Positions 6,636-45,046 of a DNA stretch of 64,000 nt are shown here, one piece after another (position 1 is the stretch's first letter; every line of letters starts with the position of its first letter). The DNA is from Caldilineaceae bacterium SB0661_bin_32 (lineage in GTDB: Bacteria > Chloroflexota > Anaerolineae > Caldilineales > Caldilineaceae): positions 1 through 64,000 of the forward strand of contig VXMH01000061.1 in the NCBI GenBank assembly GCA_009841235.1, read 5' to 3'. The notes beneath the pieces are model-generated. The model saw nothing but the letters and a program-made list of their open reading frames with translations. It did not search any database and was not told the DNA's origin. The position numbers and the translations under genes were made by a program.

Positions 6636-6645
6636 CGGTCAGTGG

Positions 6646-7833: not shown

Positions 7834-8903
7834 GTTGTCCTCTGTCGATGCGGGTTTGCTGCGCGGCCACCGGTGATCATCTGCGTGCACAGTTTCAGAG
7901 CTTGCTTGAGCGCCTGCGGACTGGCTACGCCTTTCTCGACGATGTCGAAGGCGGTGCCGTGGGCCGGGGTCGTGATCGGTGTGGAGAGGCCGCCGTGAAC
8001 GGTGACGCCGCGTTCAAAGCCGAGCAGTTTCATGGCGATCTGGCCCTGATCGTGGTACATGGTGACCACACCATCGAATTCGCCGCGGCTTGCCCGCAGA
8101 AAGACGGTGTCCGGCGGGTATGGGCCGGAGGCGGCGATGTCCTCTTCCTGGGCGGCTTCAACTGCGGGACTGATGACATCGATCTCTTCGCTGCCGAATA
8201 GCCCGCTTTCGCCGGCGTGGGGATTGAGACCGGCCACGGCGAGGCGGGGGCTTGGCTGCCCGCTCTGGCGGATGGTGTTGTGAATGAGGCGAATGGCGGG
8301 CAGGATTTCGTCGACGGATATGTGTTCATACACGGCGCGCAGGGGGATATGGGAGGTTACGCGCGAGGTCCAGAGGCCGTCGAGCGTGTTGACTTCGCCG
8401 ACGTAGCCGCTGACGCCGAGGCGGTCGGCGAAGTAGCGGAGCTCGTCCTCGTGGGGGCTGCCGGCGGCGTGCATGGCTTGCTTGTTGAGCGAAGCGTAGG
8501 AAATGCCGTCGATGACATTGGCGCGGGCTAGGTCGGCGGCAAAGTTCAGCGTTTGCAGGACGTAGCGGCCGGCGGCCGGACTCATCCGCCCAGGGGTGTG
8601 CGCGTCAGGCGAGAAGGATGGGCCGGTCAGGAGCACGGGGCCTGGGGCCGAGAGCGGCAGGTCCCCCGGTGAGTTGTAGCGCGGCAGGTCAAGCGAGAGA
8701 TCTGCGCACTGGGCGCCCCAGTCCAGAATCCAGGGGTCGCCGATGACGATGATGTTTACACCGCCGTAACCGGCGGTCGTTTTGTGCGGACTTGCCCCTT
8801 CCGCGAGGACGCGGGCAACGATTTCGGGCCCAATGCCGCTGGGGTCGCCAAGGAGAAGGGCGAGGCGTGAGGAGCGCGTCGGTGCATCTGAGTTTGGAAC
8901 CAT
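7830..8903 (-). CDS. PdxA/PdxA2 family 4-phosphate dehydrogenase
   Basis: RLALLLGDPSGIGPEIVARVLAEG, GVVTMYHDQGQIAMKLLGFERGVTVHGGLSTPITTPAHGTAFDI; ATGA overlap with the downstream gene. Confidence 0.92.
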   Translation of the reverse strand: MVPNSDAPTRSSRLALLLGDPSGIGPEIVARVLAEGASPHKTTAGYGGVNIIVIGDPWILDWGAQCADLSLDLPRYNSPGDLPLSAPGPVLLTGPSFSPDAHTPGRMSPAAGRYVLQTLNFAADLARANVIDGISYASLNKQAMHAAGSPHEDELRYFADRLGVSGYVGEVNTLDGLWTSRVTSHIPLRAVYEHISVDEILPAIRLIHNTIRQSGQPSPRLAVAGLNPHAGESGLFGSEEIDVISPAVEAAQEEDIAASGPYPPDTVFLRASRGEFDGVVTMYHDQGQIAMKLLGFERGVTVHGGLSTPITTPAHGTAFDIVEKGVASPQALKQALKLCTQMITGGRAANPHRQRTT

Positions 8904-23251: not shown

Positions 23252-23541
23252 GGAATTGAGGGAAAACGACCAGACAGAACGGATTGTCGCGGCCTGAAAA
23301 ATTGCCTGTTCTGACCGGAAGACAGGCTGCGCTGCAACCAAATTGTAACAAAGCACGACGGGCGCGTCCAGATTCGCCTGCCCTCTTCCCGAAAGCCAAC
23401 TGTTAGCGCTGGCATTCGCTTTCTGCTACACTGCCAACTGCAGTGACCAGCCGCAGAAGACCAACGGCTGGCGATACCACTTTTCCAACTGGGCACGGGG
23501 CACTGGCCACCCGTCTTCTTCTTCATTTTCGGAGTCTTGAC

Positions 23542-25731
23542 ATGACTGCACCCAGCAAATATCGACACGTATCCTACCTTTGGGATGAAGAAACTGCAGC
23601 CGGACTCGATCCGGTCGAACGTCTTGTGTACCGCTCCAATCTGCTGGGCCAGGACCAGCGAATCACCAACACGGGCGGCGGCAACACGTCCTCCAAATAT
23701 ATGGAGACCGATCCGCTTACGGGCGAATCGGTTGAGGTGCTGTGGGTCAAGGGGTCGGGCGGCGACCTGCGCACTTCGAAACGGGAGAACTTCTCCTCGC
23801 TCTACATGGACAAGATCCGGCAGCTGCGAGCCATTTACGACGCGGCCGACGAGAAAGGGCTCAAGACACCGATTGAAGACGAAATGGTGGGGAAGTATCT
23901 CCACTGTGTCTACGACCTCAACCCGCGCGCCTCTTCCATCGACACGCCGCTGCACGCTTTTATTCCCGCTCCCATTGTGGACCACACGCACCCAAACGCT
24001 GTCATCGCCATCGCCGCGGCCGAGGATGGTGAGGCGCTGACTGCCGAGATCTTCGGTGATCGGCTGGGCTGGGTGGAATGGCAGCGGCCCGGCTTTGATC
24101 TTGGGCTGGTGATGGGCGATATGGCGGCCGCGAGTCCGGCGATGGAAGGGATCATGATGGGCGGCCATGGGTTGATCAACTGGGCCGGGGACGACAAAGC
24201 CTGCTACGAGTCGAGCCTGGATATTATCGAGAAGGCTGCACTTTACATCGAGAGCCGGGACAAGGGGGCAAAGACCTTTGGCGGTCAGAAGTACGCGGCG
24301 CTTGCCGATGGCGAGCGGGAGACGCTGCTGGTGGAGCTGCTGCCGGCGCTGCGGGGCATGGTCAGCCAGGAAAATGTTTTCGTCGGCACGGTGCAGGCGG
24401 ACGAGGCGATTTTGCGCTTCGTCAACAGCAACGACGCGGCCCGGCTCGCGGAATTGGGCACGTCCTGTCCGGACCACTTCCTGCGCACCAAGATCAAGCC
24501 TCTCTATGTGGATTGGGATCCGAAGACGAAGGATGCAGGGGCGCTGCTGGCGAAGCTGGAGAGTGGGCTGGCCCAATACCGCCAGGACTACGCCGACTAC
24601 TACGACGCGCACAAACATCCCGATTCCCCGGCGATGCGCGACCCGAACCCGACGGTGATTCTGATTCCCGGGATTGGCATGATCGCGTGGGGGAAGAACA
24701 AGAGTGAGAGCCGGGTGACGGCGGAGTTCTACAACTGTGCGGTGGAGGTGATGCGCGGCGCGGAGACGGTCAGTCAATACGTGGCGCTGCCCAAGCAGGA
24801 GGCCTTCGATATCGAGTACTGGCTGCTGGAGGAGGCGAAGCTGCGGCGGATGCCGCCGGAACAGGAGCTGGCGCGCAACGTCGTGGTTGTGGTCGGCGCG
24901 GGCAGCGGCATCGGCAGGGCGATCGCGCACCGCGTGGCAAAGGAGGGCGCGCATGTGGTCTGCGCGGACCTGAACGCGGAGGCGGCGCAGGCGACTGCGG
25001 ATGAGTTGACCGGCATTTACGGGGTCGGTATCGGCGTCGCGGGTACGGGAATCTCGGCGTGCGGGCCGGCGATCGGGCTGGGCGTAGACGTGGGCGGCCG
25101 CGCGAGCGTGAGGGCGCTCTTCCAGGAGACGTTGCTGGCCTATGGCGGCATAGACCATCTGGTCATTACAGCCGGCTTCTACCACCCGCCCGATGCCAGC
25201 GGCCAGATTCCCGACGAGAAGTGGGGCACAACGTTCGACGTGAACGTCAAAGGGGCATATATCGTTGCGGACGAAGCGCGCAAGATCTGGCGGGCGCAGG
25301 GGCTGCCGGGCTCGCTGGTGATCGCGACCAGCGTCAACGGCGCGGTGGCCAAGAAGGGCTCGCTGGCCTATGACACGAGCAAGGCGGCGGCCAACCATCT
25401 TGTGCGGGAGCTGGCGATCGAACTGGCGCCGAATGTGCGCGTCAACGGACTGGCCCCGGCTACGGTAGTGACCGGCAGCTCGATGTTCCCGCGCGAGCGG
25501 GTCATATCGGGGTTGCAGAAGTACGGGCTGCCCTTCGACGAGGGGGAAGAGACGGAGGCGCTACGGGACCGTTTGGCGGCATTCTATGCCGAGCGCACGC
25601 TGACGAAGCAGGCGGTCCTGCCGGAAGATCAGGCCGAGGCCGCCTACCTGCTGCTGAGCGGGGCGCTTTCCAAGACGACGGGGCAGATACTCAACGTGGA
25701 CGGCGGGTTGGTGGAGGCTTTCCTGCGCTAA
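23542..25731 (+). CDS. Bifunctional rhamnulose-1-phosphate aldolase / short-chain alcohol dehydrogenase (RhaD/RhaE-type fusion)
   Basis: N-terminal class II aldolase (TNTGGGNTSSKY, DHTHPNAVIAIA) fused to SDR (VVVVGAGSGIGRAIAHRVAKEGAHVVCADL, YDTSKAAANHLVRELA). Confidence 0.92.
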   Translation: MTAPSKYRHVSYLWDEETAAGLDPVERLVYRSNLLGQDQRITNTGGGNTSSKYMETDPLTGESVEVLWVKGSGGDLRTSKRENFSSLYMDKIRQLRAIYDAADEKGLKTPIEDEMVGKYLHCVYDLNPRASSIDTPLHAFIPAPIVDHTHPNAVIAIAAAEDGEALTAEIFGDRLGWVEWQRPGFDLGLVMGDMAAASPAMEGIMMGGHGLINWAGDDKACYESSLDIIEKAALYIESRDKGAKTFGGQKYAALADGERETLLVELLPALRGMVSQENVFVGTVQADEAILRFVNSNDAARLAELGTSCPDHFLRTKIKPLYVDWDPKTKDAGALLAKLESGLAQYRQDYADYYDAHKHPDSPAMRDPNPTVILIPGIGMIAWGKNKSESRVTAEFYNCAVEVMRGAETVSQYVALPKQEAFDIEYWLLEEAKLRRMPPEQELARNVVVVVGAGSGIGRAIAHRVAKEGAHVVCADLNAEAAQATADELTGIYGVGIGVAGTGISACGPAIGLGVDVGGRASVRALFQETLLAYGGIDHLVITAGFYHPPDASGQIPDEKWGTTFDVNVKGAYIVADEARKIWRAQGLPGSLVIATSVNGAVAKKGSLAYDTSKAAANHLVRELAIELAPNVRVNGLAPATVVTGSSMFPRERVISGLQKYGLPFDEGEETEALRDRLAAFYAERTLTKQAVLPEDQAEAAYLLLSGALSKTTGQILNVDGGLVEAFLR

Positions 25732-27113: not shown

Positions 27114-28112
27114 ATGAACAGATTTACTTCTGCCGCGTTGTCTTTTTTGCAGGCGGGCGCGGCTGTTCTGCTTTTTGCGGCCTGTGCGGCCGGTCAGGTC
27201 TCCTTTCCGGAACAGGGGGAAGATGGTTCGACATCCCCTGAGCCAGCCGAGGCCGCCGGTGAATGGCAGACAGGCGCGGTGATGCCCACGGCCCGCTCGG
27301 AGATGCGTGTGGCGGTCGTGGACGGGATCTTCTATGTGCCAGGCGGTTTTGGCGGGCTGACAAGCTTCGAATCATACGATCCGGAGAGTGACAGCTGGAC
27401 GGAACTGTCGCCGATGCCGGAACCGGCCCACCACATGATGGTGACCAGCTATAGCGGAAAGGTCTACGTTTTTGGCGGAGGGCCCGATTTGAGCTGGCAG
27501 GCTACGGCATTGGTACTGGTCTACGATCCGGCGACCGACATGTGGACGGAGGCCGGTCTGATGCCGGAGCGGCGGATGAGCGGGGAAGCGGTGCTGCTCG
27601 GGGATTTCATCTATCTTGTGGGCGGCACGGGGGGTACGACGGCGCTGCTCAGGTTTGATCCGGCGGGGGAAACCTGGGCCGTACTGCCCGGTCCGGCGCA
27701 GCCGCGCGAGCACGTGGCGGCTGTGGCTTTCAACAGCGAGCTGTGGGTTATCGGTGGACGCTGGGGCGGGACGGGCGCGCTGGCGACGGTGGAGATATTT
27801 GATCCGGCCAGCGGGACGTGGCGCGACGGTCCGGAAATGAACGAAGCGCGCAGCGGATTCGGCGCGGCCGCGGTGGGCGGCCGCATCGTGGTTGCCGGCG
27901 GCGAGATTCTGGGTGCGCGCCCGTGGACGGCTTTGGCCAGCGCGGAGGTGTATGATCCGAACTCGGGCGAGTGGACGCTTTTGCCGGAGCTGCCGGCGGG
28001 CATTCATGGGATGCCTGTGGTTGGCATTGAGGGGATGGTGTTTGTTCTTGGTGGGTCGGACCGGGCTGGGGGGATCGATAATCGAGGACGGGTGCTGAAA
28101 TACAACCCGTAA
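27114..28112 (+). CDS. Kelch-repeat lipoprotein
   Basis: Lipobox VLLFAACAAG; repeated YDPxSDSWTELSPMP.../GKVYVFGG kelch units. Confidence 0.9.
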   Translation: MNRFTSAALSFLQAGAAVLLFAACAAGQVSFPEQGEDGSTSPEPAEAAGEWQTGAVMPTARSEMRVAVVDGIFYVPGGFGGLTSFESYDPESDSWTELSPMPEPAHHMMVTSYSGKVYVFGGGPDLSWQATALVLVYDPATDMWTEAGLMPERRMSGEAVLLGDFIYLVGGTGGTTALLRFDPAGETWAVLPGPAQPREHVAAVAFNSELWVIGGRWGGTGALATVEIFDPASGTWRDGPEMNEARSGFGAAAVGGRIVVAGGEILGARPWTALASAEVYDPNSGEWTLLPELPAGIHGMPVVGIEGMVFVLGGSDRAGGIDNRGRVLKYNP

Positions 28113-28214
28113 GGACGCAGCCAGAAGTCCGAAGAACGATTCTTGCCGCAACTGCGTGAATCGGCAAATTGGTACGACCTTCGCCTCCGGCTACATCCAA
28201 GGAGAACCACAGCC

Positions 28215-29270
28215 ATGTTCCCGGACCTGCAACCTGGTGACTACCAGCCCGTTCTGCCCTCTGACCTGCGCTATGGCATTGGCTTCGTCGGATGCGGCAA
28301 CATCGTCCTCAGATCGCAGATGCCCGCTTACAAGAGGGCGGGCTACCGCGTCGTCGCTTGCTGCGACAAAACGGAGGAGAAAGCACGCAGCGTGGCGGCC
28401 AATTTCGACAACCCGCTGGTTACAACCGACGTGGAAGAGCTACTTTCGTATCCTGAGGTACAGGTCGTTGATCTGGCAGTACACGCTTACCAACGCCTGC
28501 CCCTGGTCGAACAGATCGCGGCCGCAGGCAAGCACATCTTTTCGCAGAAGCCCTTGGCTCCCAGCTTGCGCGAGGCCGAGCGTATTGTTGAGATATGCCG
28601 CGAGGCCGGGGTAACGCTGATGGTCAATCATCAGGCGCGTTGGGCGCCTCCCCATCGGGCTCTCAGGCTCCTGGTCGAACGGGGCGTGTTGGGGCACGTC
28701 TACGCCATTACCCACATTCATCGGGCTTACCAGGACTATGGCTGGTACGCTGAGCATGAGAACTTCAACATTGTTGATCATGGTATCCACTATGTTGATT
28801 TGAGCCGTTACTTCAGCGGATACACGCCGCTGCGGGTGAAGGCGACAACTGCGATGGTGCCCGGCCAGAAGGCGGTCTCCCCTATGATCTATACAATCCT
28901 CTTTGAATACGAGGAGTCGTCCCAGATTATGACGACGCTGCATTTTAACAACATCGTTTCAGCGCCCGCTCTCCATGATCATCTGTGGTACTTGGATGGC
29001 ACGCGCGGGAGCGCGCTGCTCAGCAATCCCATGGGGACGGCCAAGTTAAGCCTGTCGTTGAAGGATTCCCCGGAACAGGTACAGACTTACGAAATCGCCG
29101 GCACCTGGGGATATGAGGGCTTCGCCGGTTCGATGGGAGAGATGTTGCGCGCTATGGAAGAAGGGCGCGAGCCGGAATGTTCAGGCCGCGACAACCTGGA
29201 GAGCATACGAATGGCGGTCGCGGCAGTTGAGAGTGCCAGCTCGGGCGAAAGTGTCGAACTGAGCCGGTAG
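28215..29270 (+). CDS. Gfo/Idh/MocA family oxidoreductase
   Basis: YGIGFVGCGNIVLRSQMPAYKRAGYRVVACCDKTEEKARSVAANF, HIFSQKPLAPSLREAERIV. Confidence 0.93.
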   Translation: MFPDLQPGDYQPVLPSDLRYGIGFVGCGNIVLRSQMPAYKRAGYRVVACCDKTEEKARSVAANFDNPLVTTDVEELLSYPEVQVVDLAVHAYQRLPLVEQIAAAGKHIFSQKPLAPSLREAERIVEICREAGVTLMVNHQARWAPPHRALRLLVERGVLGHVYAITHIHRAYQDYGWYAEHENFNIVDHGIHYVDLSRYFSGYTPLRVKATTAMVPGQKAVSPMIYTILFEYEESSQIMTTLHFNNIVSAPALHDHLWYLDGTRGSALLSNPMGTAKLSLSLKDSPEQVQTYEIAGTWGYEGFAGSMGEMLRAMEEGREPECSGRDNLESIRMAVAAVESASSGESVELSR

Positions 29271-29318: not shown

Positions 29319-30143
29319 ATGCGGATATGCAGTGGCTTTTATCGCTGGTCTCAACACTACGGCTGGCACTTTCTGACAGAGCGCATTGACGAGGTTGCAG
29401 CCGGCTTGGCCCAGGCAGGCTACGCCTACTTTGAGGGACTTCTCGATCCGTTAGAGAGAGAAGGGGACTGGGCAAGCCGCTGGCATACTGCCCTGGACAG
29501 GCATGGGGTGCGACTGGCGGGGGCATACGTGCATGCGTTGCTGCACGATACAAGCGTGCAGGCGCAGTCTATCGAAACAATTGTCGCAAGAGCACAGCTG
29601 CTGCGACCCATGGGAGCTGAATTTATCAATGCCAATCCTCAACCCATTGGCGCGCGCAAGACCGACGAGATGTTGACAGTCCAGGCCCAGGGTTTCGCCC
29701 GGCTGGGCGCTGCGCTGAGGAGAGAGGGTTTGCGTCTCGTCGTACATCATCATTTGCCCGAACTGGCCGAGAACGGTCGTGAGCTGCGCCACCTCCTGGA
29801 CCATACCGACGCTGGAGACGTGGGTCTGACAGTAGATGCCGACTGGATGTGCCGAGGGGGCCAGGATGCAAAGGCGTGGATTCGCGAGTTCGCGTCCAGG
29901 CTTGAAATCGTGGAACTGCGAAGTTCGCATGAGGGCATTTGGGATGAGACTTTGGGTGACGGCGACCCCGATTGCCGAGAGCTGGCTCAAGTGCTGGCCG
30001 GGGTGAGTTTTGACGGGTGGTTAATGGTCGAGTTGGCTCGCGAAAAAGGCACGCCTCACTCTCTTGATCTGGTCCAGGCCCACGCACACAGTCTGGGATA
30101 CGTGCGCGAAATCTTCGACGTGCACGGTCAGGATCTTGCCTGA
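29319..30143 (+). CDS. Sugar phosphate isomerase/epimerase (TIM barrel)
   Basis: RLVVHHHLPELAENGRELRHLLDHTDAGDVGLTVDADWMCRGGQDAKAWIREFASRLEIVELRSSHEGIWDE. Confidence 0.82.
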   Translation: MRICSGFYRWSQHYGWHFLTERIDEVAAGLAQAGYAYFEGLLDPLEREGDWASRWHTALDRHGVRLAGAYVHALLHDTSVQAQSIETIVARAQLLRPMGAEFINANPQPIGARKTDEMLTVQAQGFARLGAALRREGLRLVVHHHLPELAENGRELRHLLDHTDAGDVGLTVDADWMCRGGQDAKAWIREFASRLEIVELRSSHEGIWDETLGDGDPDCRELAQVLAGVSFDGWLMVELAREKGTPHSLDLVQAHAHSLGYVREIFDVHGQDLA

Positions 30144-30258: not shown

Positions 30259-30500
30259 GACATATTTATGTCTCCCGGCCGTTGACCAAAGATGAGTCAC
30301 AGCGAAACCAGACAGAGCAGATCTTTTCTTTCCGGCATGAACAGACGAAGAAGCCGGTCTGGTGTCTCTGAATCATGCGAGTCTGTCGGGAGGTGGACTT
30401 ACAAAAGGAGGTGATAACCAGCCAAAACCAATGAGTACTCGGTACTAAACGTGTGTCGTACCTATCGCTCTCTATCTGTTCACAGAAAGGAGATCAGGAG

Positions 30501-32195
30501 ATGAACCCGTTTCGTGTACGAATTGGTAGCCGCCGTTCTCTGATTTTTGTGGCTGCACTGAGCATTGCAGCCCTGATGTTCGCTGCTTGCGTCCCTGTCG
30601 CCGCGCCGGCCGCCGACGCCCCGGCGGCGGCAGAAGCCGAAACTGATGAGGGGGGCACCCTCACGATTGGCTCCGTACAGGGCAGCGCTTCCATCCCCAC
30701 CTTCCTTCCCTGGAAAGCGCACAGCAGTGCGCAGTCATTCCACTGGAACCTCTTCATGAACTCACTGGTGATGCAGGAGCACAGCACGCTCGAGTGGGTT
30801 CCCGATCTGGCCGAGAGCTATGAGATCAGTGAAGACGGCCTGACTTACACCTTTCACCTGCGCGAAGGTGTGACGTGGCATGACGGCATGCCTTTTACTG
30901 CAAATGACGTCTCCTTCTCCTTCCACGCGGCCCTGCTGCCGGAAGGCGGGTCGACAGCGTCCGGCGGCCTGAAGGATGCGATCGTAGGCGCACTTGACTA
31001 CCAGGAAGGCAACGCCGAGAGTGCCGAGGGGATCAAGGTCCTTGACGACTATACGATCCAATTTGAGTTGACCCAACCGCAGGTAACGATCATAGAGCGA
31101 TTCGCTATGCGAATTGCCCCTGCCCACGTATTCGAAGGGCTTGAGCCGGAGGAGTGGCTGCAGACCGAGTTTGCCACGACGTTGCCATTCGGCACCGGTC
31201 CGTTCGTGTTCAAGGAATATATCCCCGATCAGCACACGATCTTTGAGCGCAACGACAGCTATTTCAAGGGTGCGCCTCTGCTCAAGAACGCCGTAATTCG
31301 ATTCTACGGTGACAACAGCGTGATGATCATCGCCCTGGAAAAGGGTGAGATAAACATGGTCGGATTCCTGAACCCGAGTGCTGACGAGTTCGACAAAGTC
31401 ACGAACCTGCCCGGCGTCGCCTGGGAATACCAGGACAAGTTCCCGGCCTACTTCTTCTCGATCACGTTCCAGGACGAGGCACTGGCGGACAAGCGGTTCC
31501 GGCAGGCGTTTCTGTACTCGATCGACCGTAAGGAGATTGCCACCCAACTCTGGGGCAATGCGGACTTGACGAAAGTGCAACCGGTGTCGCAGTGGGCGCC
31601 TCCTCCAGGTGTTGAGCTGGATATTGAGGAGTACGCTTACAACCCCGAAAAGTCCAAGATGTTGCTGGAAGACATGGGCTGGGACTTCGACCGCGTCGTC
31701 GAGATTGTCTGGTTTGGCACCGATATGCCGGATCAGCTGCCGATCCTCCAGCAGTTCATCGAAGGCGTTGGCATCAAGACCAAGCTGGTACAGACCGATG
31801 GGGCCAGGGGTCTGGAGGTCTTCTACGAGACCGGCGACTATGAGATCAGCTGGGTTGGCGGCTGGGGCCGGTCTTACTATCCTGACACGACCGTTGTCGG
31901 GTGCGACCGCGTCTATCCGAACGGCTACAACTCAAGCCGCTACTGTAACGAGGAACTGGATGCACTGTACAATGAGGCCCTCGCTACGGTTGACGACGAC
32001 GCACGCAATGAACTGTACACGCGTGCCACCGCCATCTGGAATGATGAACTTCCGTGGATACCTCTGTATGCGCCGCAGTCTCTGTTGCTGATACACGAGA
32101 ATGTCAAGGGATGGCGTGACAGCCTCATCGGGCCTGAAGGATCGGCCACAATTGGCGCTGTCACCGATCTCGAGAAGTGGTACATTGAGGAGTAG
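30501..32195 (+). CDS. Peptide/nickel-type ABC transporter substrate-binding lipoprotein (SBP family 5)
   Basis: Lipobox LMFAACVPVAAPAAD; LAESYEISEDGLTYTFHLREGVTWHDGMPFTANDVSFSF; SD-like aggagatcaggag before ATG. Confidence 0.95.
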   Translation: MNPFRVRIGSRRSLIFVAALSIAALMFAACVPVAAPAADAPAAAEAETDEGGTLTIGSVQGSASIPTFLPWKAHSSAQSFHWNLFMNSLVMQEHSTLEWVPDLAESYEISEDGLTYTFHLREGVTWHDGMPFTANDVSFSFHAALLPEGGSTASGGLKDAIVGALDYQEGNAESAEGIKVLDDYTIQFELTQPQVTIIERFAMRIAPAHVFEGLEPEEWLQTEFATTLPFGTGPFVFKEYIPDQHTIFERNDSYFKGAPLLKNAVIRFYGDNSVMIIALEKGEINMVGFLNPSADEFDKVTNLPGVAWEYQDKFPAYFFSITFQDEALADKRFRQAFLYSIDRKEIATQLWGNADLTKVQPVSQWAPPPGVELDIEEYAYNPEKSKMLLEDMGWDFDRVVEIVWFGTDMPDQLPILQQFIEGVGIKTKLVQTDGARGLEVFYETGDYEISWVGGWGRSYYPDTTVVGCDRVYPNGYNSSRYCNEELDALYNEALATVDDDARNELYTRATAIWNDELPWIPLYAPQSLLLIHENVKGWRDSLIGPEGSATIGAVTDLEKWYIEE

Positions 32196-32367
32196 CCAGT
32201 TTGTGACGCCGAGCTGAAGAAAGTCTGATCCCCGTGGCGTTGTGGGTCAGGACTCCGATGTTGGGCAAACTCTCCTGTGGGGAGCAACGGTGGTGGGGCC
32301 GGTTTGCGCCGACTCCGCCGCCTCCCTCCCGCCCTTCAAACCCTGGTTGAACCGAGGGGGAACCGCT

Positions 32368-33327
32368 TTGGGACGCTATATCTTACAGCGTATCTTGATA
32401 TCGTTCCCGGTATTGTTCGGCATCACGATCGTAACGTTCACTTTCGCCAACCTTGCGCCGGGCGATCCGGTTACGGCGATGATTGACCCCATGAGCGGGA
32501 TTGAACCTGGTGAGGTTGAGAAGCTCAAAGAGGCGCTGGGCATCAACAGGCCGATTCACGTTCGTTATGTCATCTGGCTGAAGGAGGTACTGGGCGGCAA
32601 CCTGGGTTACTCCTATGTCACGCACAGGCCGGTGGCCGTCATGATCGCTGAGCGACTGCCGCAGACGTTGCAACTGATGATGACGGCCCTGGGCATCAGC
32701 ATCCTTCTGGGCGTTTCGTTGGGCATCTACGCTGCTTTCAACCAGTACTCACTCCTGGACAATGTGTTCACGCTGTTGGTGTTCATTGGCATATCGGTGC
32801 CGGCTTTTTTCTTTGCCCTGCTGGCCATTTACATGTTCTCATTCAGGATACCTCTCTTTCCGACCTCTGGCATTAAGGAACCTCTGAGCACTCTCCCACC
32901 AATCGTCGACCGTCTCCATCACCTAGTGCTTCCGGCCACTGTTCTGGGGATTGAAGGGGTGGCAGGCTACCTGCGCTACACACGCTCCAGCGTTTTGGAA
33001 GTCATGCGCCAGGATTACGTAACCACTGCGCGGGCTAAAGGGCTGCGCGAACGCGCTGTCCGCATTGGTCACGTACTGCGCAATGCGCTGCTGCCGCTGG
33101 TGACGATTGTCGGTTTGAGTCTGCCAAGCTTGATAGGCGGGGCACTGTTCATCGAAGTCCTCTTCTCCTGGCCCGGCATGGCCCGCATGGCGATCGAGCA
33201 CACGCTGGGCCGGGATTACCCTGTAATCATGGGAATCGGTCTCGTCTCCGCGACCATGGTTCTGTTCAGCAACCTGGTTGCAGACATTGTTTATACAGTT
33301 GTGGACCCCAGAATCCGCTATGAATAG
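32368..33327 (+). CDS. Dipeptide/oligopeptide-type ABC permease (DppB-like)
   Basis: LGRYILQRILISFPVLFGITIVTFTFANLAPGDPVTAM; RAKGLRERAVRIGHVLRNALLPLVTIVGL. TTG start inferred after gaggggg; ORF extends to 32242. Confidence 0.93.
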   Translation: MGRYILQRILISFPVLFGITIVTFTFANLAPGDPVTAMIDPMSGIEPGEVEKLKEALGINRPIHVRYVIWLKEVLGGNLGYSYVTHRPVAVMIAERLPQTLQLMMTALGISILLGVSLGIYAAFNQYSLLDNVFTLLVFIGISVPAFFFALLAIYMFSFRIPLFPTSGIKEPLSTLPPIVDRLHHLVLPATVLGIEGVAGYLRYTRSSVLEVMRQDYVTTARAKGLRERAVRIGHVLRNALLPLVTIVGLSLPSLIGGALFIEVLFSWPGMARMAIEHTLGRDYPVIMGIGLVSATMVLFSNLVADIVYTVVDPRIRYE

Positions 33328-33396: not shown

Positions 33397-34332
33397 ATGG
33401 AAGGCGAGGCAAAAGAGACGGCGAAGCAGGGGTCACTTATCAGCGAAGACCTGCAACATATGGTGCGCGGCGGGGCAGTCGTCGGTCTGCGCGAGCTCAT
33501 CTGGCGCCGCTTCAGCCGGCACCGACTTGCGCTGGTATCGATTGCCATCATGTTTGTGCTGGCGCTCTCCGCCATCTTTGCCCCATTGCTGAGCCGCCCA
33601 AATGATCCTTACACGGCCGACCTGCAAAACCTGCGGGCGCCACCCAGTCAGGAGCATATTCTGGGGACCGACCGCTCCGGACGGGACATGCTTGCCCGTA
33701 TTCTCCACGGCGGCCGCGTTTCGCTTTCGGTGGGACTGATAGCGACCTCAATCTATATTTCTATCGGCACGATCCTGGGCGGAGTAAGCGGTTACCGGGG
33801 CGGCGTGACCGATTTTATCATTATGCGCATCACCGACATCGTGATGTGCTTTCCCAGTTTACTCATCATCCTGACTCTCGTTGCCGTCATAGGCCCTAGC
33901 ATCTTCAACATCATGATTATCCTCGGTCTATTGGGGTGGCCGAGTATCGCCCGCCTGGTGCGGGGAGAGTTCCTGTCGCTCAGCGAACGTGACTTCGTCA
34001 TGGCGGCGCGCTGTCTGGGCGCGACGGAGCGCGGTATCATCTTCCGCCACATTCTGCCGAACGTGGTGGGCCCCCTTGTGGTGGCGGCCACTTTCGGCAT
34101 TGCCGGGGCCATCATGGCGGAGGCAGGCCTGAGCTTCCTGGGACTCGGCGTGCAGGCGCCGCGGCCGAGTTGGGGCCAGATGTTGAGCGCGGCGACGTCG
34201 CTGACGACACTTGAGAGAAGGCCCTGGATCTGGATGCCGCCAGGCGCGATGATTGCCGTCACTGTGCTGAGCATCAATTTCATTGGCGACGGATTGCGCG
34301 ACGCGCTCGACCCGCGCACGATGCTGGACTGA
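33397..34332 (+). CDS. Dipeptide/oligopeptide-type ABC permease (DppC-like)
   Basis: EHILGTDRSGRDMLARILHGGRVSLSVGL; ARCLGATERGIIFRHILPNVVGPLVVAATFGIAGAIMAEAGLSFLGLGVQ. Confidence 0.95.
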   Translation: MEGEAKETAKQGSLISEDLQHMVRGGAVVGLRELIWRRFSRHRLALVSIAIMFVLALSAIFAPLLSRPNDPYTADLQNLRAPPSQEHILGTDRSGRDMLARILHGGRVSLSVGLIATSIYISIGTILGGVSGYRGGVTDFIIMRITDIVMCFPSLLIILTLVAVIGPSIFNIMIILGLLGWPSIARLVRGEFLSLSERDFVMAARCLGATERGIIFRHILPNVVGPLVVAATFGIAGAIMAEAGLSFLGLGVQAPRPSWGQMLSAATSLTTLERRPWIWMPPGAMIAVTVLSINFIGDGLRDALDPRTMLD

Positions 34333-34502
34333 AAGGCTGTGGATCGGTCGCGGCGGACGATAGAGAGCGGTAGCTGATCGGTTTATTCCGTATTGAGTAG
34401 AGGCAGACAAGGCAGCCGCGATTCCATTGCGTAACCCGCGCGGGAAGTCCTGGTGTCAAACGAGCTTCACATTCGATGCGCGTTTCTTACGGAGAGGGAA
34501 CA

Positions 34503-36188
34503 GTGGCAGAGGCCATTTACTTGACCGACATGTCAGTGTGTCTGCCTCAGAGTGCGCTGTCAACGACGCCGCAGAGGCACAAGTGGCAGGTTGTGGAGTA
34601 CACTGCCGAGGAAGGCCTGGCCGGCAAGATGGCCTTCGCCCACGCCCTGTACGAGACACCGCCCATAACATTGCCTCTGAACGTGGAGGGCTGGCATGCG
34701 TTCAGCATCGGCTTCTGGCCCGGCGTGGAGCAGGAACACACGAGCCTGGTCAAGTACAGGCTGTCCGGTGAGGCCGTGTACACGGTTGCGGAGCACTATG
34801 TACAGAGCCCGTCGCTGCCAGGGAATTTCTGGGACAGAACTGAACTCGTCGAGACGTTTCCCCGGTTTGCCGACCTGACAGGGCAGGACCTGCTCTTCAG
34901 TAAGCAGAATACCGCTCATCCTCAGACTCTGGCTTGTGTGGCCTACGTCAAGCTGGTGCCGCTCATGCAGTCTGAAGTGGAAGCAATACAGCGCGACAGG
35001 GAACAGCGGGAGACGCGCAGGGTCGTTGGCATGATTGACGGCGAAGGCCTGTTTCACCAGAAGTGTCCGGCGACGAAAGAGGAGCTCCAGGAGCAGATCG
35101 AGCCATTTCGGTACGCGGACGTGGGGAAGGTACTCTGGGGCGTCAATCTGAGCGATCTGACCTATTATCACTCCAAGGTAGGACGATTCTATGGGACTGA
35201 GGATGGCGTGTGTCCTGTGTTGCGCCACGAACACGCGCTAAAAAGCCACAAGGCGCTGGCAGAACAGGGTATAGTCCCTTTCGCGGCGGCAATGGAATAC
35301 GCGCATGAGCTGGATCTGGAGTTCCACACATACTACCGGCTGAGCATCGTAGATAAGGCTCAACCCTACTTCTTTTTCTCAACGGAAACCAGCTTTGTCC
35401 GGGACAATCCGGATTGCCGCATTGTGGCCAAGGACGGCTCGCCGCTGATGAAGGCCAGCTATGCCTTCCCGAAGGTGCGGAATTTCATGGTCTCTCTCAT
35501 GGAGGAGGCGATGGAGTACGACATCGACGGGGTACACCTCTGCTTCACGCGCGGGCCGGAGTATATCGGTTACGAGCAGCCGGTGCTGGACGAGTTCAGA
35601 CGGCTATATGGGGAAGACGCGCGGGACGCGGCTGATGACGACGAGCGGCTGTACAAAGTCAAAGCGAGCTATCTGACGGAGTTCCTGCGGGCTGTACGAG
35701 AGACGGCAGACGAGCACGGGAAAAAAAGAGGACGCAAAATGCAGGTGTCGGCGATTTTTGAGGGCGGCAAGGAGGACATGCGCTATTTTGCCTACGATGC
35801 CTACACCTGGGTAGAGGAAAAACTGGTCGACTTCATCATCACGAACCCTCCTTCGGACCTGGTCAGGCTGGCGAAAGAGAACGGATGCCAGGTGTACATG
35901 TTCTCTACGAAAGATGACAAGGTGCTGACGATGAAGCACGCGTACGCTGCCGGGATGGACGGGATGGCCATTTGGGACATCAACACGACGCGTCCTGAAA
36001 CGTGGACTATAGAGAGCCGGTTGGGTCATCGCGACGAAGTCATCGATCTGCCGAAACCTGAACGGTATCCGAAGATGAAGCGGACCAGACTGATCACGAT
36101 TCATGGACGGGATTTTTCGCAGACGGTAGACAAGAACGTTCCCTCGGGTTGGCCTCCAGAGCTGCTTGTCATCTACACCGGGGGATGA
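34503..36188 (+). CDS. Uncharacterized ~560-aa protein, possible TIM-barrel (GH10/DUF187-like) hydrolase, paralog 1
   Basis: GTG start inferred by alignment to paralog 2 (VAEAIYLTDM vs MCAERKAIYISDM); DLEFHTYYRL, MEYDIDGVHLCFTRGPEYIGYEQPVLDEFRRLYGED. Confidence 0.7.
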   Translation: MAEAIYLTDMSVCLPQSALSTTPQRHKWQVVEYTAEEGLAGKMAFAHALYETPPITLPLNVEGWHAFSIGFWPGVEQEHTSLVKYRLSGEAVYTVAEHYVQSPSLPGNFWDRTELVETFPRFADLTGQDLLFSKQNTAHPQTLACVAYVKLVPLMQSEVEAIQRDREQRETRRVVGMIDGEGLFHQKCPATKEELQEQIEPFRYADVGKVLWGVNLSDLTYYHSKVGRFYGTEDGVCPVLRHEHALKSHKALAEQGIVPFAAAMEYAHELDLEFHTYYRLSIVDKAQPYFFFSTETSFVRDNPDCRIVAKDGSPLMKASYAFPKVRNFMVSLMEEAMEYDIDGVHLCFTRGPEYIGYEQPVLDEFRRLYGEDARDAADDDERLYKVKASYLTEFLRAVRETADEHGKKRGRKMQVSAIFEGGKEDMRYFAYDAYTWVEEKLVDFIITNPPSDLVRLAKENGCQVYMFSTKDDKVLTMKHAYAAGMDGMAIWDINTTRPETWTIESRLGHRDEVIDLPKPERYPKMKRTRLITIHGRDFSQTVDKNVPSGWPPELLVIYTGG

Positions 36189-36210
36189 GAGAGGATTGAG
36201 GAGGGTTCCA

Positions 36211-37875
36211 ATGTGTGCAGAACGCAAGGCCATCTACATCTCCGATATGGGGCGATGTGAGCCTGGATCGGCCATTTCAGAGACGGCTGAGCATGGTCAC
36301 TGGCGGGCGATCCCTTACGAAGCGGAGGGCGTGTCAGGCACAATGATAACGGCCGGCATTGAGTGCAACGCGCCCACACTTACTCTTCCTTTGAATGTGC
36401 AAGGATGGTATGCCATCCACCTGGGTATCTGGACCAACTGGGTGGACAGGGTGACCCGGGTCAAGCTGACGGATGACCCTTGCTTCAGCACGGCGACGAC
36501 GCTGTATCCGGACATAAAGAAGACGAACTATTTCGCAAGTATCGGCGAGGTATTTTGGAAATGCGCTGATCTGACAGGGCAGTCGTTGCATATCGGCCAG
36601 CAAAGCGAGGGCACGCCCTGGGCTTCGGGAATTGCCTACGTAAAGCTGGAGCCTTTGAACCCTGAAGAGGTTGCTGCCATCAAAGAAGGTCGAGCCGGAA
36701 GCGATACGAAACGACTCGTCGCCTACAACGACGCCTGGAGCGTGTTCGGCGAACGGGCGCTGTATACCGAGCAAGATATCATCGAGGAGGTAGAGCCTTT
36801 TCGCGATACCGACTTCCAGAAGCTGTTGTGGGGAATCGGCGCGGGGAGCATGGTGCAGTATCTGTCCGAAGTGGGCGAACTCGCTGAAAAGAAGGGAATG
36901 AGCGACTTTTCGCGGTACTGCGATCGCCAGGCAGCAGAGAGTTTCCGAATGCTGAGGGAGAGGGGGATTGACCCTCTGAAGACGGTGATCGACCATGCCC
37001 ACGATCTGGGTATCGAACTGCATGGCACGTACCGGGTGGGCGGATGGGTTTTCCCGCCGCCGGATGATTTTGAAGACGGGCTTTACCGCCAGCATCCTGA
37101 ATGGCGCTGTGTGAACCGGGACGGCCGGCCCGTGGCCCGCCTGAGTTATGCATTTCCAGGCGTCAAGGATTTTGTGATCTCGCTTTTCCGCGAAGTGGCG
37201 GAGCGAGGGGCGGACGGCGTCAACATGGCCTTTATCCGCGGTCTGCCGTGTGTCCTGTACGAGCAGCCTATCGTCGAGGGTTTTCAGCAGCTGCACGGTC
37301 AGGATCCCCGACAGCTGCCGGAGGATGATCCCAGCTGGCTGTCCTACCGAGCGAGTTGGATGACGTCATTCATGCGGGAACTGCGCGAGGAGATGGACCG
37401 GGTGGGCGAACGGCAGGGGCGACGTATTCAGGTATCGGCTTACGTTATCGAAACGCTGGCGTACAATCTTCAGTATGGCCTGGATGTGGCGGCCTGGGGC
37501 AAGGAAGGCCTGGTTGATTTCATTATTCCCAACCCCTGGCACGGCGATATGGATGTTGATGTCGCCTCCTTCGTGGAGGTCACGCGCGGCACCGACTGCC
37601 AGGTTTACGCCGACATTTTGCCGCGACGGATGCCGACGGGCGAGTACCGGCAGCGGGCACTGGACTGCTACGCGGCAGGTGTCGACGGCCTGGCTTTCTG
37701 GGACACGAACAGCCGTTACCCATTCCTGAACGAATGGAGCATGATTAGGCGGTTGGGGCATGAAGAGGCGTTGAGCGAGTGGGCGGCTGACGAGTGGCCG
37801 GCGTACCGGCAGATCCCTTTGCACAGTTTGGGCGGCCACCATATGGACAGTTATTCGCCCTACTGGTCAGCCTGA
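36211..37875 (+). CDS. Uncharacterized ~554-aa protein, possible TIM-barrel (GH10/DUF187-like) hydrolase, paralog 2
   Basis: Paralogous to the preceding gene along its length; GIELHGTYRVGGW, ERGADGVNMAFIRGLPCVLYEQPIVEGFQQLHGQD; SD gaggaggg before ATG. Confidence 0.72.
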   Translation: MCAERKAIYISDMGRCEPGSAISETAEHGHWRAIPYEAEGVSGTMITAGIECNAPTLTLPLNVQGWYAIHLGIWTNWVDRVTRVKLTDDPCFSTATTLYPDIKKTNYFASIGEVFWKCADLTGQSLHIGQQSEGTPWASGIAYVKLEPLNPEEVAAIKEGRAGSDTKRLVAYNDAWSVFGERALYTEQDIIEEVEPFRDTDFQKLLWGIGAGSMVQYLSEVGELAEKKGMSDFSRYCDRQAAESFRMLRERGIDPLKTVIDHAHDLGIELHGTYRVGGWVFPPPDDFEDGLYRQHPEWRCVNRDGRPVARLSYAFPGVKDFVISLFREVAERGADGVNMAFIRGLPCVLYEQPIVEGFQQLHGQDPRQLPEDDPSWLSYRASWMTSFMRELREEMDRVGERQGRRIQVSAYVIETLAYNLQYGLDVAAWGKEGLVDFIIPNPWHGDMDVDVASFVEVTRGTDCQVYADILPRRMPTGEYRQRALDCYAAGVDGLAFWDTNSRYPFLNEWSMIRRLGHEEALSEWAADEWPAYRQIPLHSLGGHHMDSYSPYWSA

Positions 37876-38087: not shown

Positions 38088-38984
38088 TCAGCCTTTGAGG
38101 CCGGTCAGGACAACACCCTCGATGATGAAGCGCTGGACGGCGATGAAGAGCGCGAGGATGGGGACGATGGCGAGGCTGGCTCCGGCCATGATGACGCCGT
38201 ACTGGTTCCAGAATTCGCCGACGAAAGTGGCGAGGCCGACGGTTATGACGTATTTGTCGTGGCTGGAGATGACGACGAGGGGCCAGAGGAAATCGTTCCA
38301 GTTCCACATGAAGTAGAAGGCGATCAGGGTGAAGAGGGCGGCGCGGGAGAGTGGGATGATGATGCGGTGGAAGATGTACCACTCGCCGGCGCCGTCGATG
38401 CGGGCGGCGTCGACCAGTTCGGTGGGGATGGTGTACATGAACTGGCGGAACATGAACATGGCGTAGACGGTGAAGATTTCGGGGACGATGAGGGCTGTAA
38501 AGGTGTCGGCCCAGCCGACCTGGACGGTCATGAGGTAGAGTGGGATCAGATAGACTTCAAAGGGGATGATCCAGGTGCTGAGCAGGATGTAGAAGATGAT
38601 GTCGCGGCCGCGGAAGACGAATTTGCCGAAGATGTAGCCGAGGAGCGCGCTGGTGTAGATATTGAAGACGGTCTTGATCACGCTAATGAAGGTTGTATTC
38701 CAGTAGAGGCGACCCATGTTGGCGCGGTCGAAGACATCGATATAGTTTGATACTGTGGGGTTGATGGGGAAGAGGCGGGGCGGGAAGGAGACTGTTTCGG
38801 CCTGGGGTTTGAAGGAGGTGCTGATCATCCAGATGAAGGGGACGATCATCAGTATGGCGCCGGCGCCCAGGATAAGATAGTTGAACAACAGACCCCGGCG
38901 CAGGCGCTGGAAATCGGTTGCGCCGCGGTTGAGAGCCCGCGTATCGACCTGGCTGGGTATGCCAACAAAGTCCTGGTTAGCCAT
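38088..38984 (-). CDS. Carbohydrate ABC transporter permease (CUT1, MalG-like)
   Basis: LVDAARIDGAGEWYIFHRIIIPLSRAALFTLIAFYFMWNWNDFLWPLVV EAA loop. Confidence 0.95.
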   Translation of the reverse strand: MANQDFVGIPSQVDTRALNRGATDFQRLRRGLLFNYLILGAGAILMIVPFIWMISTSFKPQAETVSFPPRLFPINPTVSNYIDVFDRANMGRLYWNTTFISVIKTVFNIYTSALLGYIFGKFVFRGRDIIFYILLSTWIIPFEVYLIPLYLMTVQVGWADTFTALIVPEIFTVYAMFMFRQFMYTIPTELVDAARIDGAGEWYIFHRIIIPLSRAALFTLIAFYFMWNWNDFLWPLVVISSHDKYVITVGLATFVGEFWNQYGVIMAGASLAIVPILALFIAVQRFIIEGVVLTGLKG

Positions 38985-39047
38985 GGGTTACTCCAGAAAG
39001 AGACCAGGTTAAACAAGGGGTATGACGGCGTTGGGTTTGAAAGTAGC

Positions 39048-39980
39048 TCATAGTTCCCAGTCGACCCGTTGCAGTTTGAACTGGACGAGAGTAAGGATGA
39101 GAACGATTGCGAAGAGGACGAAGGACATGCTGGATGCCTGGCCCATGAACATGCGCTGGAAGGCGTAATCGTAGATGTGGAGAGCCAGCACCCTGGTGGA
39201 GTCGAGCGGGCCGCCGCCGGTCATCATGTAGATGGCCTGGAAGCCGCCGCTGAAACCGCCGATGACGCCGGTGATTAGGACGAAGGAGACGACCGGTTTG
39301 AGCAGTGGCAGAGTAATCTTGAGGGCCAGTTGGATGCTGCTGGCGCCATCGATTTCGGCGGCTTCGTAGTAGTCTTTGGGGATCCCCTTCAGTCCGGCGA
39401 GATAGATGATGACGGTAAAGCCGATCCCGCCCCAGATTCCCATCACTATGATGCTGGGCATGGCCCAGGTGGTGGACTGGAGCCAGGGGACCGGCTGGAT
39501 GCCCACAAAGCTGAGGAGTTGATTGAGCAGTCCGAAACGGGTCTGCAACATCCATTTCCAGATGGTGGCGCTGGCGATAACCGAGGTCATTACGGGCAGG
39601 AAGTAGATCAGACGAAGGAGGATGCTGCCGCGCTTTATTGGGTTGAGGATAAGAGCGACGATGAGGGAACAGAATGCGCCGAGGAAGGTGCCGGCGAAGG
39701 TGCGGTACATGGTGTTCCACATGACCTTGTAGAAGAGCGAATCTTTGGCGAGCAGGACGTAGTTGTCGAGACCGACAAAGGGTGAGACGTTGCCGAAGAG
39801 GCTCCACTCGTGCATGCTGATGAAGAAGGCAAAGAAGATAGGGTAGAACTTGACGATCAGGTAGAAGAGGATGGTGGGAACGAGGGCGATGACGATGAAA
39901 CGGTGTTCGGCGGCGCGCAGCGTGGACCGGCTACCTGTAAATTTTTGTGTGATAGTTTGAATCATCACATCGCCTCCCAC
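39048..39980 (-). CDS. Sugar ABC transporter permease (CUT1, MalF-like)
   Basis: YYEAAEIDGASSIQLALKITLPLLKPVVSFVLITGVIGGF EAA loop; multi-TM. Confidence 0.95.
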   Translation of the reverse strand: MGGDVMIQTITQKFTGSRSTLRAAEHRFIVIALVPTILFYLIVKFYPIFFAFFISMHEWSLFGNVSPFVGLDNYVLLAKDSLFYKVMWNTMYRTFAGTFLGAFCSLIVALILNPIKRGSILLRLIYFLPVMTSVIASATIWKWMLQTRFGLLNQLLSFVGIQPVPWLQSTTWAMPSIIVMGIWGGIGFTVIIYLAGLKGIPKDYYEAAEIDGASSIQLALKITLPLLKPVVSFVLITGVIGGFSGGFQAIYMMTGGGPLDSTRVLALHIYDYAFQRMFMGQASSMSFVLFAIVLILTLVQFKLQRVDWEL

Positions 39981-40280
39981 GGGGCGTTTGCAGTGTTTTC
40001 GGCGGGTGCCGACGAACGGATTTTCAACAGCGGTACGGGTTGCGGCAGAGCAGATTTAAAAGCGGAGGCGGGCCGGCAGACCTGATAGCGATCCCGTCAA
40101 TACGAGCAAATGCCGGTGCGGATAACGGGCTTATTCGTGGTCGTATCGCCGACTCCCAGTAGCCAGCCAGACCGGATACCCGAAAACAATTTGAACGGGA
40201 AATGGCAACTCCCACGCCTCCTGCCGGCGTGGGAGTTGCACATTCGACGGTTCGCTTGCACTGCATGCCGGCTGTCCGGT

Positions 40281-41597
40281 CTAGACCCAATACTTTGCCA
40301 AGCCCTCGTCGATGAGCTTCTGAATCTCGGCGTCGCCGTACTCCAGGGCCTCGGCAACCGACCGTCCCTCATTGACGATCAGATACAGAACGTCGTTTTG
40401 AACGGCGCCGGCGCGCTCGGGCACGGCGGCGTAGTTGCGTTCATGGGGATTGACTTCAGAGGCCTCTTTAAGGCCCGGTGTTTCCAGCAGCCTGGGGTCG
40501 GACATAAGGTCGGCGCGCTCCGGCACGAGCGAGATCAGTTCGCACAGGGCCCAGTAGGCATCTTTGCCGCCATCCTTGTAGAGGAACTCCATGAACTCCC
40601 AGGTGTCGCCATCGTTTTCGGGGTGGCCGGTTACGGCAGAGATGGAGGTCACCGTGTCCTTGTAACCATAGAGCGGATCGGGTTCCCCTGTTGGGGTAGG
40701 CGGATGGGAGTAGCCTATGTGGGGGTACATATCGGGATAGGTGTTGACGTACTCACCGACAACCCAGGTCTGCTCCTCGGTCATGGCAGCGAGGCCGTTG
40801 CCAATGGAGTCGAAGTTGGGAAATCCGGAGTCCCAGACTTCGTGGACGAGGGACAGGTCGGTGATGTAGCTGAAGGCCTCATGGACTTCGGGGCTGGTCA
40901 TGAGAGAAATCTGTTCATCGCCGTTGTTTTGGATGACGTTGCCGCCCAGCTGATAGATCTGGCTCAACACGGGCCATTCGCCAGTGAGGGCGAAACCGGC
41001 GCGTGAAATGGCGCCTGTACCGTCCTTTTGTGTGAGTGCCTTGGCAGCGGTTGTGAAGTCGTCCCAGGTCTTGGGGGGCGACTCCGGATCGAGGCCGGCT
41101 TCTTCGAACATCTGCTTGTTGTACATCAGGAGGGTACAGGTTGTGCCGGTAGGAAGTACATAGCGCCCGTTGGTCTTGATGTCAAAGAGAGGGTAGGCCT
41201 CTTCGAACCAGCTGGGCGGGAAGATGTCCTCAGGAAACTCAAGGACGAGATTTTCTTCCCGCATCTGGTGCATGAAGGCAAGTGAGCGCATTTTGATCAT
41301 GTTCGGCCCCGTGCCGGCTGCGAGGGCGGCGTAGAGCTTCTCGACGTAGCCGCCGGCAATGGACTGGACGTCGACGGTGATTCTATCGTTTTGTTCTGCG
41401 AATTTGTCGGCTACGCTGCGGTAGAGATCCATGCGGATGTCCCACCAGCCCCACAGGGAGAGCTCGACCGGTTCTTCGTCGGCGGCCCCTTCCATACCGG
41501 GCGCCGCTGCGGGAACGCAGGCGGCCATGGTCAACCCGAGGCCGGTGAGACCGGCTGTTTTGAGAAACTGACGTCGACTTGAGTTTGGCATTTTCAT
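40281..41597 (-). CDS. Extracellular solute-binding lipoprotein with Tat-type signal
   Basis: MKMPNSSRRQFLKTAGLTGLGLTMAACVPAAAPG: SRRQFLK twin-arginine motif plus lipobox; SBP family 1-like body. Confidence 0.93.
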   Translation of the reverse strand: MKMPNSSRRQFLKTAGLTGLGLTMAACVPAAAPGMEGAADEEPVELSLWGWWDIRMDLYRSVADKFAEQNDRITVDVQSIAGGYVEKLYAALAAGTGPNMIKMRSLAFMHQMREENLVLEFPEDIFPPSWFEEAYPLFDIKTNGRYVLPTGTTCTLLMYNKQMFEEAGLDPESPPKTWDDFTTAAKALTQKDGTGAISRAGFALTGEWPVLSQIYQLGGNVIQNNGDEQISLMTSPEVHEAFSYITDLSLVHEVWDSGFPNFDSIGNGLAAMTEEQTWVVGEYVNTYPDMYPHIGYSHPPTPTGEPDPLYGYKDTVTSISAVTGHPENDGDTWEFMEFLYKDGGKDAYWALCELISLVPERADLMSDPRLLETPGLKEASEVNPHERNYAAVPERAGAVQNDVLYLIVNEGRSVAEALEYGDAEIQKLIDEGLAKYWV

Positions 41598-44032: not shown

Positions 44033-45046
44033 CTAGTTTATCCCGAGTGTCTGAAAAAGCCCTCTGATATAGCCGGCGGCGTAAAGGAGGCCGTGGTAGA
44101 CGCGCTCACCATCATAGATGGTATGGGGGAAATGGCCTGGGATGAGGGCGCCGGAAAAACCCACATCTTTGAATGTTTTGAAAATCTCCAGAAAGTCACA
44201 ATCGGCCTCTTCGAGAAAGCATTCGCGGAAATCGGGGGCAGCGCCCTGGACACCCTGAACGTGGCCATAGACTATCTGCCCGCGGCTGCCGAAGCGGCGG
44301 ATGGCGGCGTGGATGTCGACGTTCATGGCAGTCCAGTTGCCGAGGCAGAAGTTGAGGCCGCTTGCCGGGCTGTCGGCGATGTCCATGGCGCGCTGAAAGC
44401 CGGCGGGATTGCAGAACAGTCGCGGGATGCCGCCCAGCTTTTCGACGGGCGGGTCGTCGGGATGGAGAGCCAGTCTGACACCGGCCTCCTCGGCCACCGG
44501 GACGATGGCATTGATGAAATATTCGTAGTTGCTCCACATCTCCTCGTGACTGTACTCACGATCGCGGAAGAGGGGGCCGCGATCGGCCGCGTCCTGTTCA
44601 AACCTGCTGACCTGGGCATTGCCGCGACCGGGCGTGGTGAGCGAGGTGCGCCAGGAGTTGCGGGTGACGCCCGGCTGATTCACCATCCAGTGGTAGCCGT
44701 AGACCGGAATGCCAGCCCGGCCCATGTTGCGAATGGTCTCGGCAACATTTTCGATCTGCTGGTCGCGGCCGTCCTGGCCGAGGACGATCTTTTCATAGCA
44801 CCAGTTGGGCAGGGGATTTTCTATGGAGACGACATTGAGGCCGGCGTCTTCGCACTGGGTGCGCGCCCACAGCAGGGTCTGGAAGTCCCAAAAGGCGCCC
44901 GGTTTGACGGCCGCTTCGTGTGAGAAACGTGTCCGGTGTTCGGGATGGCAGGTGGAACTGAGGGCTACGTCCAGGATGTCGTACTGTTTCAGAAAGCCGA
45001 GGAAGTTATCGTGGTCGGGCAGGGTTGCGTAAACGCAGATTCTCAT
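44033..45046 (-). CDS. Mannonate dehydratase family protein (UxuA-like)
   Basis: VSIENPLP, GYHWMVNQPGVTR, YEYFINAIVPVAEEAGVRLALHPDDPPVEKLGGIPRLFCN, LNFCLGNW. Confidence 0.9.
   Translation of the reverse strand: MRICVYATLPDHDNFLGFLKQYDILDVALSSTCHPEHRTRFSHEAAVKPGAFWDFQTLLWARTQCEDAGLNVVSIENPLPNWCYEKIVLGQDGRDQQIENVAETIRNMGRAGIPVYGYHWMVNQPGVTRNSWRTSLTTPGRGNAQVSRFEQDAADRGPLFRDREYSHEEMWSNYEYFINAIVPVAEEAGVRLALHPDDPPVEKLGGIPRLFCNPAGFQRAMDIADSPASGLNFCLGNWTAMNVDIHAAIRRFGSRGQIVYGHVQGVQGAAPDFRECFLEEADCDFLEIFKTFKDVGFSGALIPGHFPHTIYDGERVYHGLLYAAGYIRGLFQTLGIN

Follow-up and report, generated by a model that had tools for sequence, protein, structure and literature searches.

A conserved tandem of glycosidase-like genes related to GH156 beside a Dpp-type importer in Caldilineaceae (Chloroflexota)

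The window is the whole stretch of DNA that was analysed: 64,000 nucleotides, positions 1-64,000 of the forward strand of contig VXMH01000061.1 from Caldilineaceae bacterium SB0661_bin_32 (Chloroflexota). Two paralogous genes, q1 (34503..36188, + strand, 561 aa) and q2 (36211..37875, + strand, 554 aa), lie head to tail in it; both ORFs are intact and 22 bases separate them. Each encodes an N-terminal domain (about residues 1-170) followed by a TIM barrel of GH156/GHL10 type. q1 starts at GTG 34503, preceded by GGAG, and stops at 36188; q2 starts at ATG 36211, preceded by GAGGAGG, and stops at 37875. q1 has a further in-frame ATG ahead of it, at 34476; the start at 34503 is favoured because the open frame of the orthologs L011-L013 begins only about 11 codons ahead of the matched q1 start.

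The two proteins are 33-35% identical over their full length and match each other with E = 5e-90 in a whole-genome search, far past chance. dN/dS against orthologs is 0.07-0.13 for q1 and q2 alike (Nei-Gojobori), so both genes are considered real and constrained. q2 is nearer the consensus of their family (hereafter the q family); q1 is a divergent branch that departs from many family-invariant positions. These figures bear out the preliminary description of this DNA, which reported tandem paralogs of about 560 aa beside a Dpp-type importer, and the motifs that it quoted are present in q1 and q2. The C-terminal DGxAxWDxN that it gave as a shared motif holds in part: W-D is found in 57-58 of the 59 distinct q-family members over which all conservation counts were made, N in just 14 of 59.

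The genes ahead of the pair are likewise on the + strand. A Kelch-repeat lipoprotein, weakly NanM-like (27114..28112; Pfam NANM hit), is followed by a Gfo/Idh/MocA oxidoreductase (28143..29270; Pfam, the best NCBIfam hit being a weak inositol dehydrogenase match), a xylose-isomerase-like TIM barrel, weakly IolE-like (29319..30143; Pfam, NCBIfam), a family 5 solute-binding lipoprotein (SBP, SBP_bac_5; 30453..32195; Pfam, NCBIfam) and two permeases, one of DppB/OppB type (32242..33327; Pfam, NCBIfam) and one of DppC/OppC type (33397..34332; above the Opp4C cut-off). A search of public genomes for q1 returned 11 loci, all in Caldilineaceae MAGs, with q1 89-94% identical. q2 follows q1 in 11/11 of these loci and SBP-DppB-DppC precedes the pair; the block order in Caldilineaceae is that given above, from the Kelch lipoprotein to q2. 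Two further q copies lie on another contig (C93) of the window genome, in the order q paralog, DppB, DHDPS-family aldolase, SBP, DppC, q paralog, sulfatase. The importer reported just upstream of the pair is thus confirmed by Pfam and kept in the 11 MAGs, and the proposed link between pair and importer is strengthened by its recurrence on C93.

Several variants and nearby genes were recorded. In 10/11 relatives (e.g. L007:11506-12681) q2 is followed by another Gfo/Idh/MocA gene, which shares 77-82% identity with the one upstream; the window genome and L009 lack it. The q2 ortholog at L010:5230-7007 is split into two reading frames (frameshift in the MAG or assembly error), and an unrelated 496-aa ORF, perhaps a mobile element, lies between DppC and q1 at L013:6109-7599 (- strand). 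Elsewhere in the window are found acid-sugar kinase-, DegT-type aminotransferase- and PdxA-type dehydrogenase-like genes (5397-8903, judged by start sequences), a class II aldolase and short-chain dehydrogenase fusion (23443-25731; cf. rhamnulose-phosphate aldolase/dehydrogenase fusions) and a mannonate-dehydratase-like gene (UxuA; 44033-45046, - strand), which scores under its NCBIfam cut-off and has a second sugar ABC transporter (38088-41597) in its vicinity.

The q family is scattered among Chloroflexota. In an even draw of 301 genomes of this phylum, 22 carry a match, and these belong to five families including that of the window, Caldilineaceae. The window genome has four copies: q1, q2 and the two on C93. 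One 3.4-Mb Chloroflexota genome (G010) has 12 full-length copies, six of them in three tandem pairs; many members of the family stand singly. G010 also holds 17 DHDPS-family genes. A SAR202 label for such multi-copy genomes was considered and is not claimed: G010 counts 21 enolase-superfamily members vs 80 in group I isolates (PMC10444878). Plasmid records gave only distant 'family 10 glycosylhydrolase' matches, and viral contigs gave no q-family match.

Outside Caldilineaceae the q-family neighbourhoods are heterogeneous. The genes next to q-family members in general are mostly enzymes of sugar-acid metabolism rather than CAZymes. At distances of up to some 6 kb from q-family genes, DHDPS-family genes occur in 5 cases, where a crude uniform model predicts 0.6; this excess is suggestive only, since the DHDPS family was picked after being seen there. 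The highest-scoring models for these DHDPS-family neighbours are of KdgD type.

GH156, a small family of sialidases with an odd structure, is known chiefly through a single enzyme, EnvSia156. Both q proteins match Pfam GHL10 (PF02638) with scores of 43 and 47.7 bits vs a curated cut-off of 27.9, and nine of the ten members of the q-family alignment A2 match it at E up to 1; no NCBIfam model matched q1 or q2. Against PDB, EnvSia156 is the best hit of q2 as a single sequence (phmmer, E 9e-6, 92 residues matched) and the first hit of a 10-sequence q-family profile (E 6e-23), with Cwp19 second. The AlphaFold2 models of the two proteins rest on shallow alignments and their mean pLDDT is low (54.6 and 57.4); the best-scored stretches lie in the barrel, whereas a large part of the N-terminal domain cannot be relied on. 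With both models Foldseek ranks three GH156 structures 1-3 (best E 1.1e-17 and 5.1e-12), non-glycosidase barrels appearing only lower in the PDB lists. Aligned by hhalign, the q family and Chloroflexota GH156-like proteins match at 99.9% probability over 303 columns. The N-terminal region of about 165 residues, searched alone in five genomes, matched only q-family members, so the two-domain design is regarded as a trait of the family. In a maximum-likelihood tree of the barrel, EnvSia156 groups with the Chloroflexota GH156-like proteins (99/96), outside the q family; long branches (EnvSia156, q1) leave the finer placement unsure.

As judged from these alignments and the tree, the q family, itself uncharacterised, is here called a sister of GH156 and not a member of it: two of the residues that define GH156 (His134, Asn346) are not retained. 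The idea of an undescribed glycoside hydrolase or lyase family accordingly survives for its first half: a glycoside hydrolase barrel with no characterised close family is supported (GHL10 above cut-off, glycosidases by Foldseek, no NCBIfam match), and the lyase option is unsupported. The TIM barrel predicted earlier also stands; its likeness is not a loose one to GH10/DUF187 but specifically one to the inverting GH156 sialidase (profile, Foldseek).

The active site of EnvSia156 comprises Asp14 (base), His134 (acid) and, around the carboxylate, Arg129, Arg202 and Asn346 (PMC6811678). Its residues were mapped to q2 by HMMER and hhalign alignments, with an additional EnvSia156 fragment for beta1; the q1 equivalents were taken from alignment. 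Three residues are invariant (59/59): Asp174 in beta1 (36730..36732), equivalent to the base Asp14; Arg275 in beta3 (37033..37035), equivalent to Arg129; and Arg343 in beta4 (37237..37239), equivalent to Arg202. Their q1 counterparts are at 35037..35039, 35337..35339 and 35550..35552. Glu351, in the YE motif of the beta4 loop (37261..37263; q1, 35574..35576), is Glu in 56/59 and Asp in 3/59. Asp498 of beta8 (FWD; 37702..37704; q1, 35976..35978) occupies the place of the third carboxylate ligand, Asn346, which is thus not kept: Asp is found in 57/59. All these codons are on the + strand. The acid His134 is not kept either: q2 has Val280, and the family has H in 19/59, otherwise D, V, T, Q, R and others. 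Other near-invariant residues of q2 are Glu269, His271, Tyr350, Glu/Asp351, Arg367 and Asp373. q1 and q2 share the same mapped active-site residues and differ in the flanking loops; the pair may, as first suggested, act on two linkages of one substrate.

By this mapping, the q-family pocket is GH156-like for the base and for carboxylate reading, with the acid moved. It departs from the pair of acidic residues that had been anticipated: the conserved pocket is one Asp with two Arg, not a classical Glu/Glu pair. Glu/Asp351 is probably the general acid, by its conservation and place, and would differ in this from His134 of GH156. It may instead be structural, because its loop also occurs in a GHL10-like family without the second Arg.

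The reading preferred here is that q1 and q2 are cytoplasmic hydrolases that take a terminal carboxylate-bearing sugar off a glycan imported by the Dpp/Opp system, with Asp174, Arg275 and Arg343 forming the pocket; it is rated a little better than an even chance. The SBP-DppB-DppC importer would bring in a small glycan or glycoside. q1 and q2, on which no signal peptide is apparent by eye, unlike the lipoprotein-type SBP, would cleave off a terminal carboxylate sugar, for instance an ulosonic or uronic acid, in the cytoplasm. Arg275 and Arg343 (q2) would hold the carboxylate as Arg129 and Arg202 do in EnvSia156, Asp174 would activate the attacking water as Asp14 does, and Glu/Asp351 would presumably protonate the leaving group, the course being an inverting one. 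The dehydrogenase and isomerase encoded next to the pair may then feed the freed acid sugar into a non-phosphorylative catabolism of keto-deoxy-acid type. q1 and q2 probably divide specificity or form a heterodimer. Several features count against this scheme: the GH156 acid His134 is not kept; Asp498, in place of Asn346, would be awkward close to the carboxylate of a ligand if it is neither protonated nor paired anew; the models have low pLDDT; the loop of Glu351 is shared with a family that has no second Arg; and the neighbourhoods outside Caldilineaceae are heterogeneous.

A canonical sialic acid is doubtful as the sugar released. That q1 and q2 are true sialidases, divergent GH156 enzymes acting on imported sialosides to free Neu5Ac, KDN or a like sugar, would suit EnvSia156 being the closest solved relative and the retention of the base Asp and of both carboxylate Arg; sialic acid-linked residues and sialidase genes have moreover been reported from sponge mesohyl and sponge Caldilineae (PMC6306507, PMC8163846). 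This is nevertheless unlikely: neither His134 nor Asn346 is conserved, and a distinct GH156-like protein carrying the motif RVNDHH is encoded in the same genome. The Kelch protein, through its NANM Pfam hit, and the DHDPS/NAL neighbours had pointed to a sialic acid operon, an idea weakened by three results. NanE has no match in the window genome (98.7% complete), and the control search finds NanE in E. coli. A genome-wide NANM search does not recover the Kelch protein, which scores far under the NCBIfam NanM cut-offs. Against models of N-acetylneuraminate lyase, whose cut-offs are 281 and 382 bits, the aldolases beside q-family genes at L048 and L055 score no more than 34 bits, so no NanA was recognised there, and the DHDPS-family scores are KdgD-like. 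An acidic sugar is therefore favoured as the substrate and ordinary sialic acid catabolism is not, given the KdgD-like aldolases, the missing NanE and a Kelch protein that is no clear NanM.

The division of work between the copies could be stricter: q2 might carry out the catalysis, with q1 as a diverged partner or as a subunit that sets specificity in a heterodimer, the family tandems then reflecting obligate pairing. EnvSia156 is a homodimer in which a groove joins both active sites (PMC6811678), tandem pairs recur (in Caldilineaceae and as the three pairs among 12 copies in G010), and q1 differs at many family-invariant positions. This reading is still improbable, as q1 retains the Asp, Arg, Arg, Glu and Asp, purifying selection acts on it as on q2, and many family members are unpaired. 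More doubtful again is that the barrel is no hydrolase and reuses a GH156-like pocket for a different reaction on sugar acids, as an isomerase, epimerase or dehydratase; the sugar-acid metabolism of most neighbours and the missing GH156 general acid would agree with such an enzyme, but the best structural relatives in PDB are glycosidases.

A wider proposal, made tentatively and with the balance somewhat against it, is that the q family is a new CAZy family whose carboxylate-reading pocket is a re-engineered GH156 pocket (a carboxylate acid replacing His), expanded in some Chloroflexota and cutting an unrecognised acidic sugar of sponge or marine glycans. The source organism is guessed, from its relatives, to be sponge-dwelling. 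Uronic acid and glycosaminoglycan use has been predicted for Caldilineae among sponge Chloroflexi (PMC6306507); a cultured SAR202 group I strain has few known glycoside hydrolases (PMC10444878), and a SAR202 group II genome has GH156 and GH179 annotations (PMC11994032). The tandem itself is real, under constraint and conserved; its glycosidase-like family, which is uncharacterised, stands beside GH156 and has had part of the pocket rewired. A sister family that keeps the carboxylate-reading Arg with a changed acid would show the GH156 fold being retuned to other acidic sugars. q1 and q2 are testable candidates for glycan use by uncultured Chloroflexota, and their probable cleavage of acidic sugars from imported molecules would add modestly but usefully to knowledge of glycan feeding by marine bacteria.

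Among known systems, Cwp19 of Clostridioides difficile (5OQ2, GHL10) shares with the q family the TIM barrel and the beta3 E-x-H motif. Its proposed active-site residues are Asp195, Asp196 and Arg132 (PMC5765458); with chain numbering converted to that of the publication via Trp127 and Arg132, the two Asp fall on q2 Ala340/Phe341 and the Arg on Gly278. That q1 and q2 are GHL10-type cleavers of peptidoglycan or glucosaminoglycan with the Cwp19 site is very improbable, despite the Pfam GHL10 match and the second rank of Cwp19 in PDB, given these substitutions and the export signal not seen by eye. The Pfam GHL10 label is not transferable to the mechanism of q1 and q2, because the Cwp19 site residues are absent.

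GHL10-like Chloroflexota proteins of 360-396 aa (L005, L059) have the beta4 loop YE-x4-F-x3-HG ... LP-x-DDP-x-WL-x-(F/Y)RA as in the q family; they differ from it in having neither the Arg343 equivalent nor the N-terminal domain, and lie far away in the tree. GH109, GH177 and GH179 are NAD-dependent glycosidases of Gfo/Idh/MocA fold; this fold differs from that of q1 and q2 and is shared by the gene at 28143-29270, so that a NAD-dependent glycoside step next to the pair is possible. The separate GH156-like protein of the window genome (P0001; G000:C74:29768-31306, - strand; L006/L068) carries RVNDHH, the R129-D132-H134 pattern, and by its sequence is a more canonical sialidase candidate than q1 or q2. 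EnvSia156 itself (PDB 6RZD/6S00/6S04) has a C-terminal beta-sandwich, whereas the q family has an additional domain at its N-terminus (about 165 aa), Asp498 at the place of Asn346 and an extra beta4 loop with Glu351 in a pocket without a conserved His134. The TIM barrel, the beta1 Asp, the beta3 Arg and the beta4 Arg are common to both.
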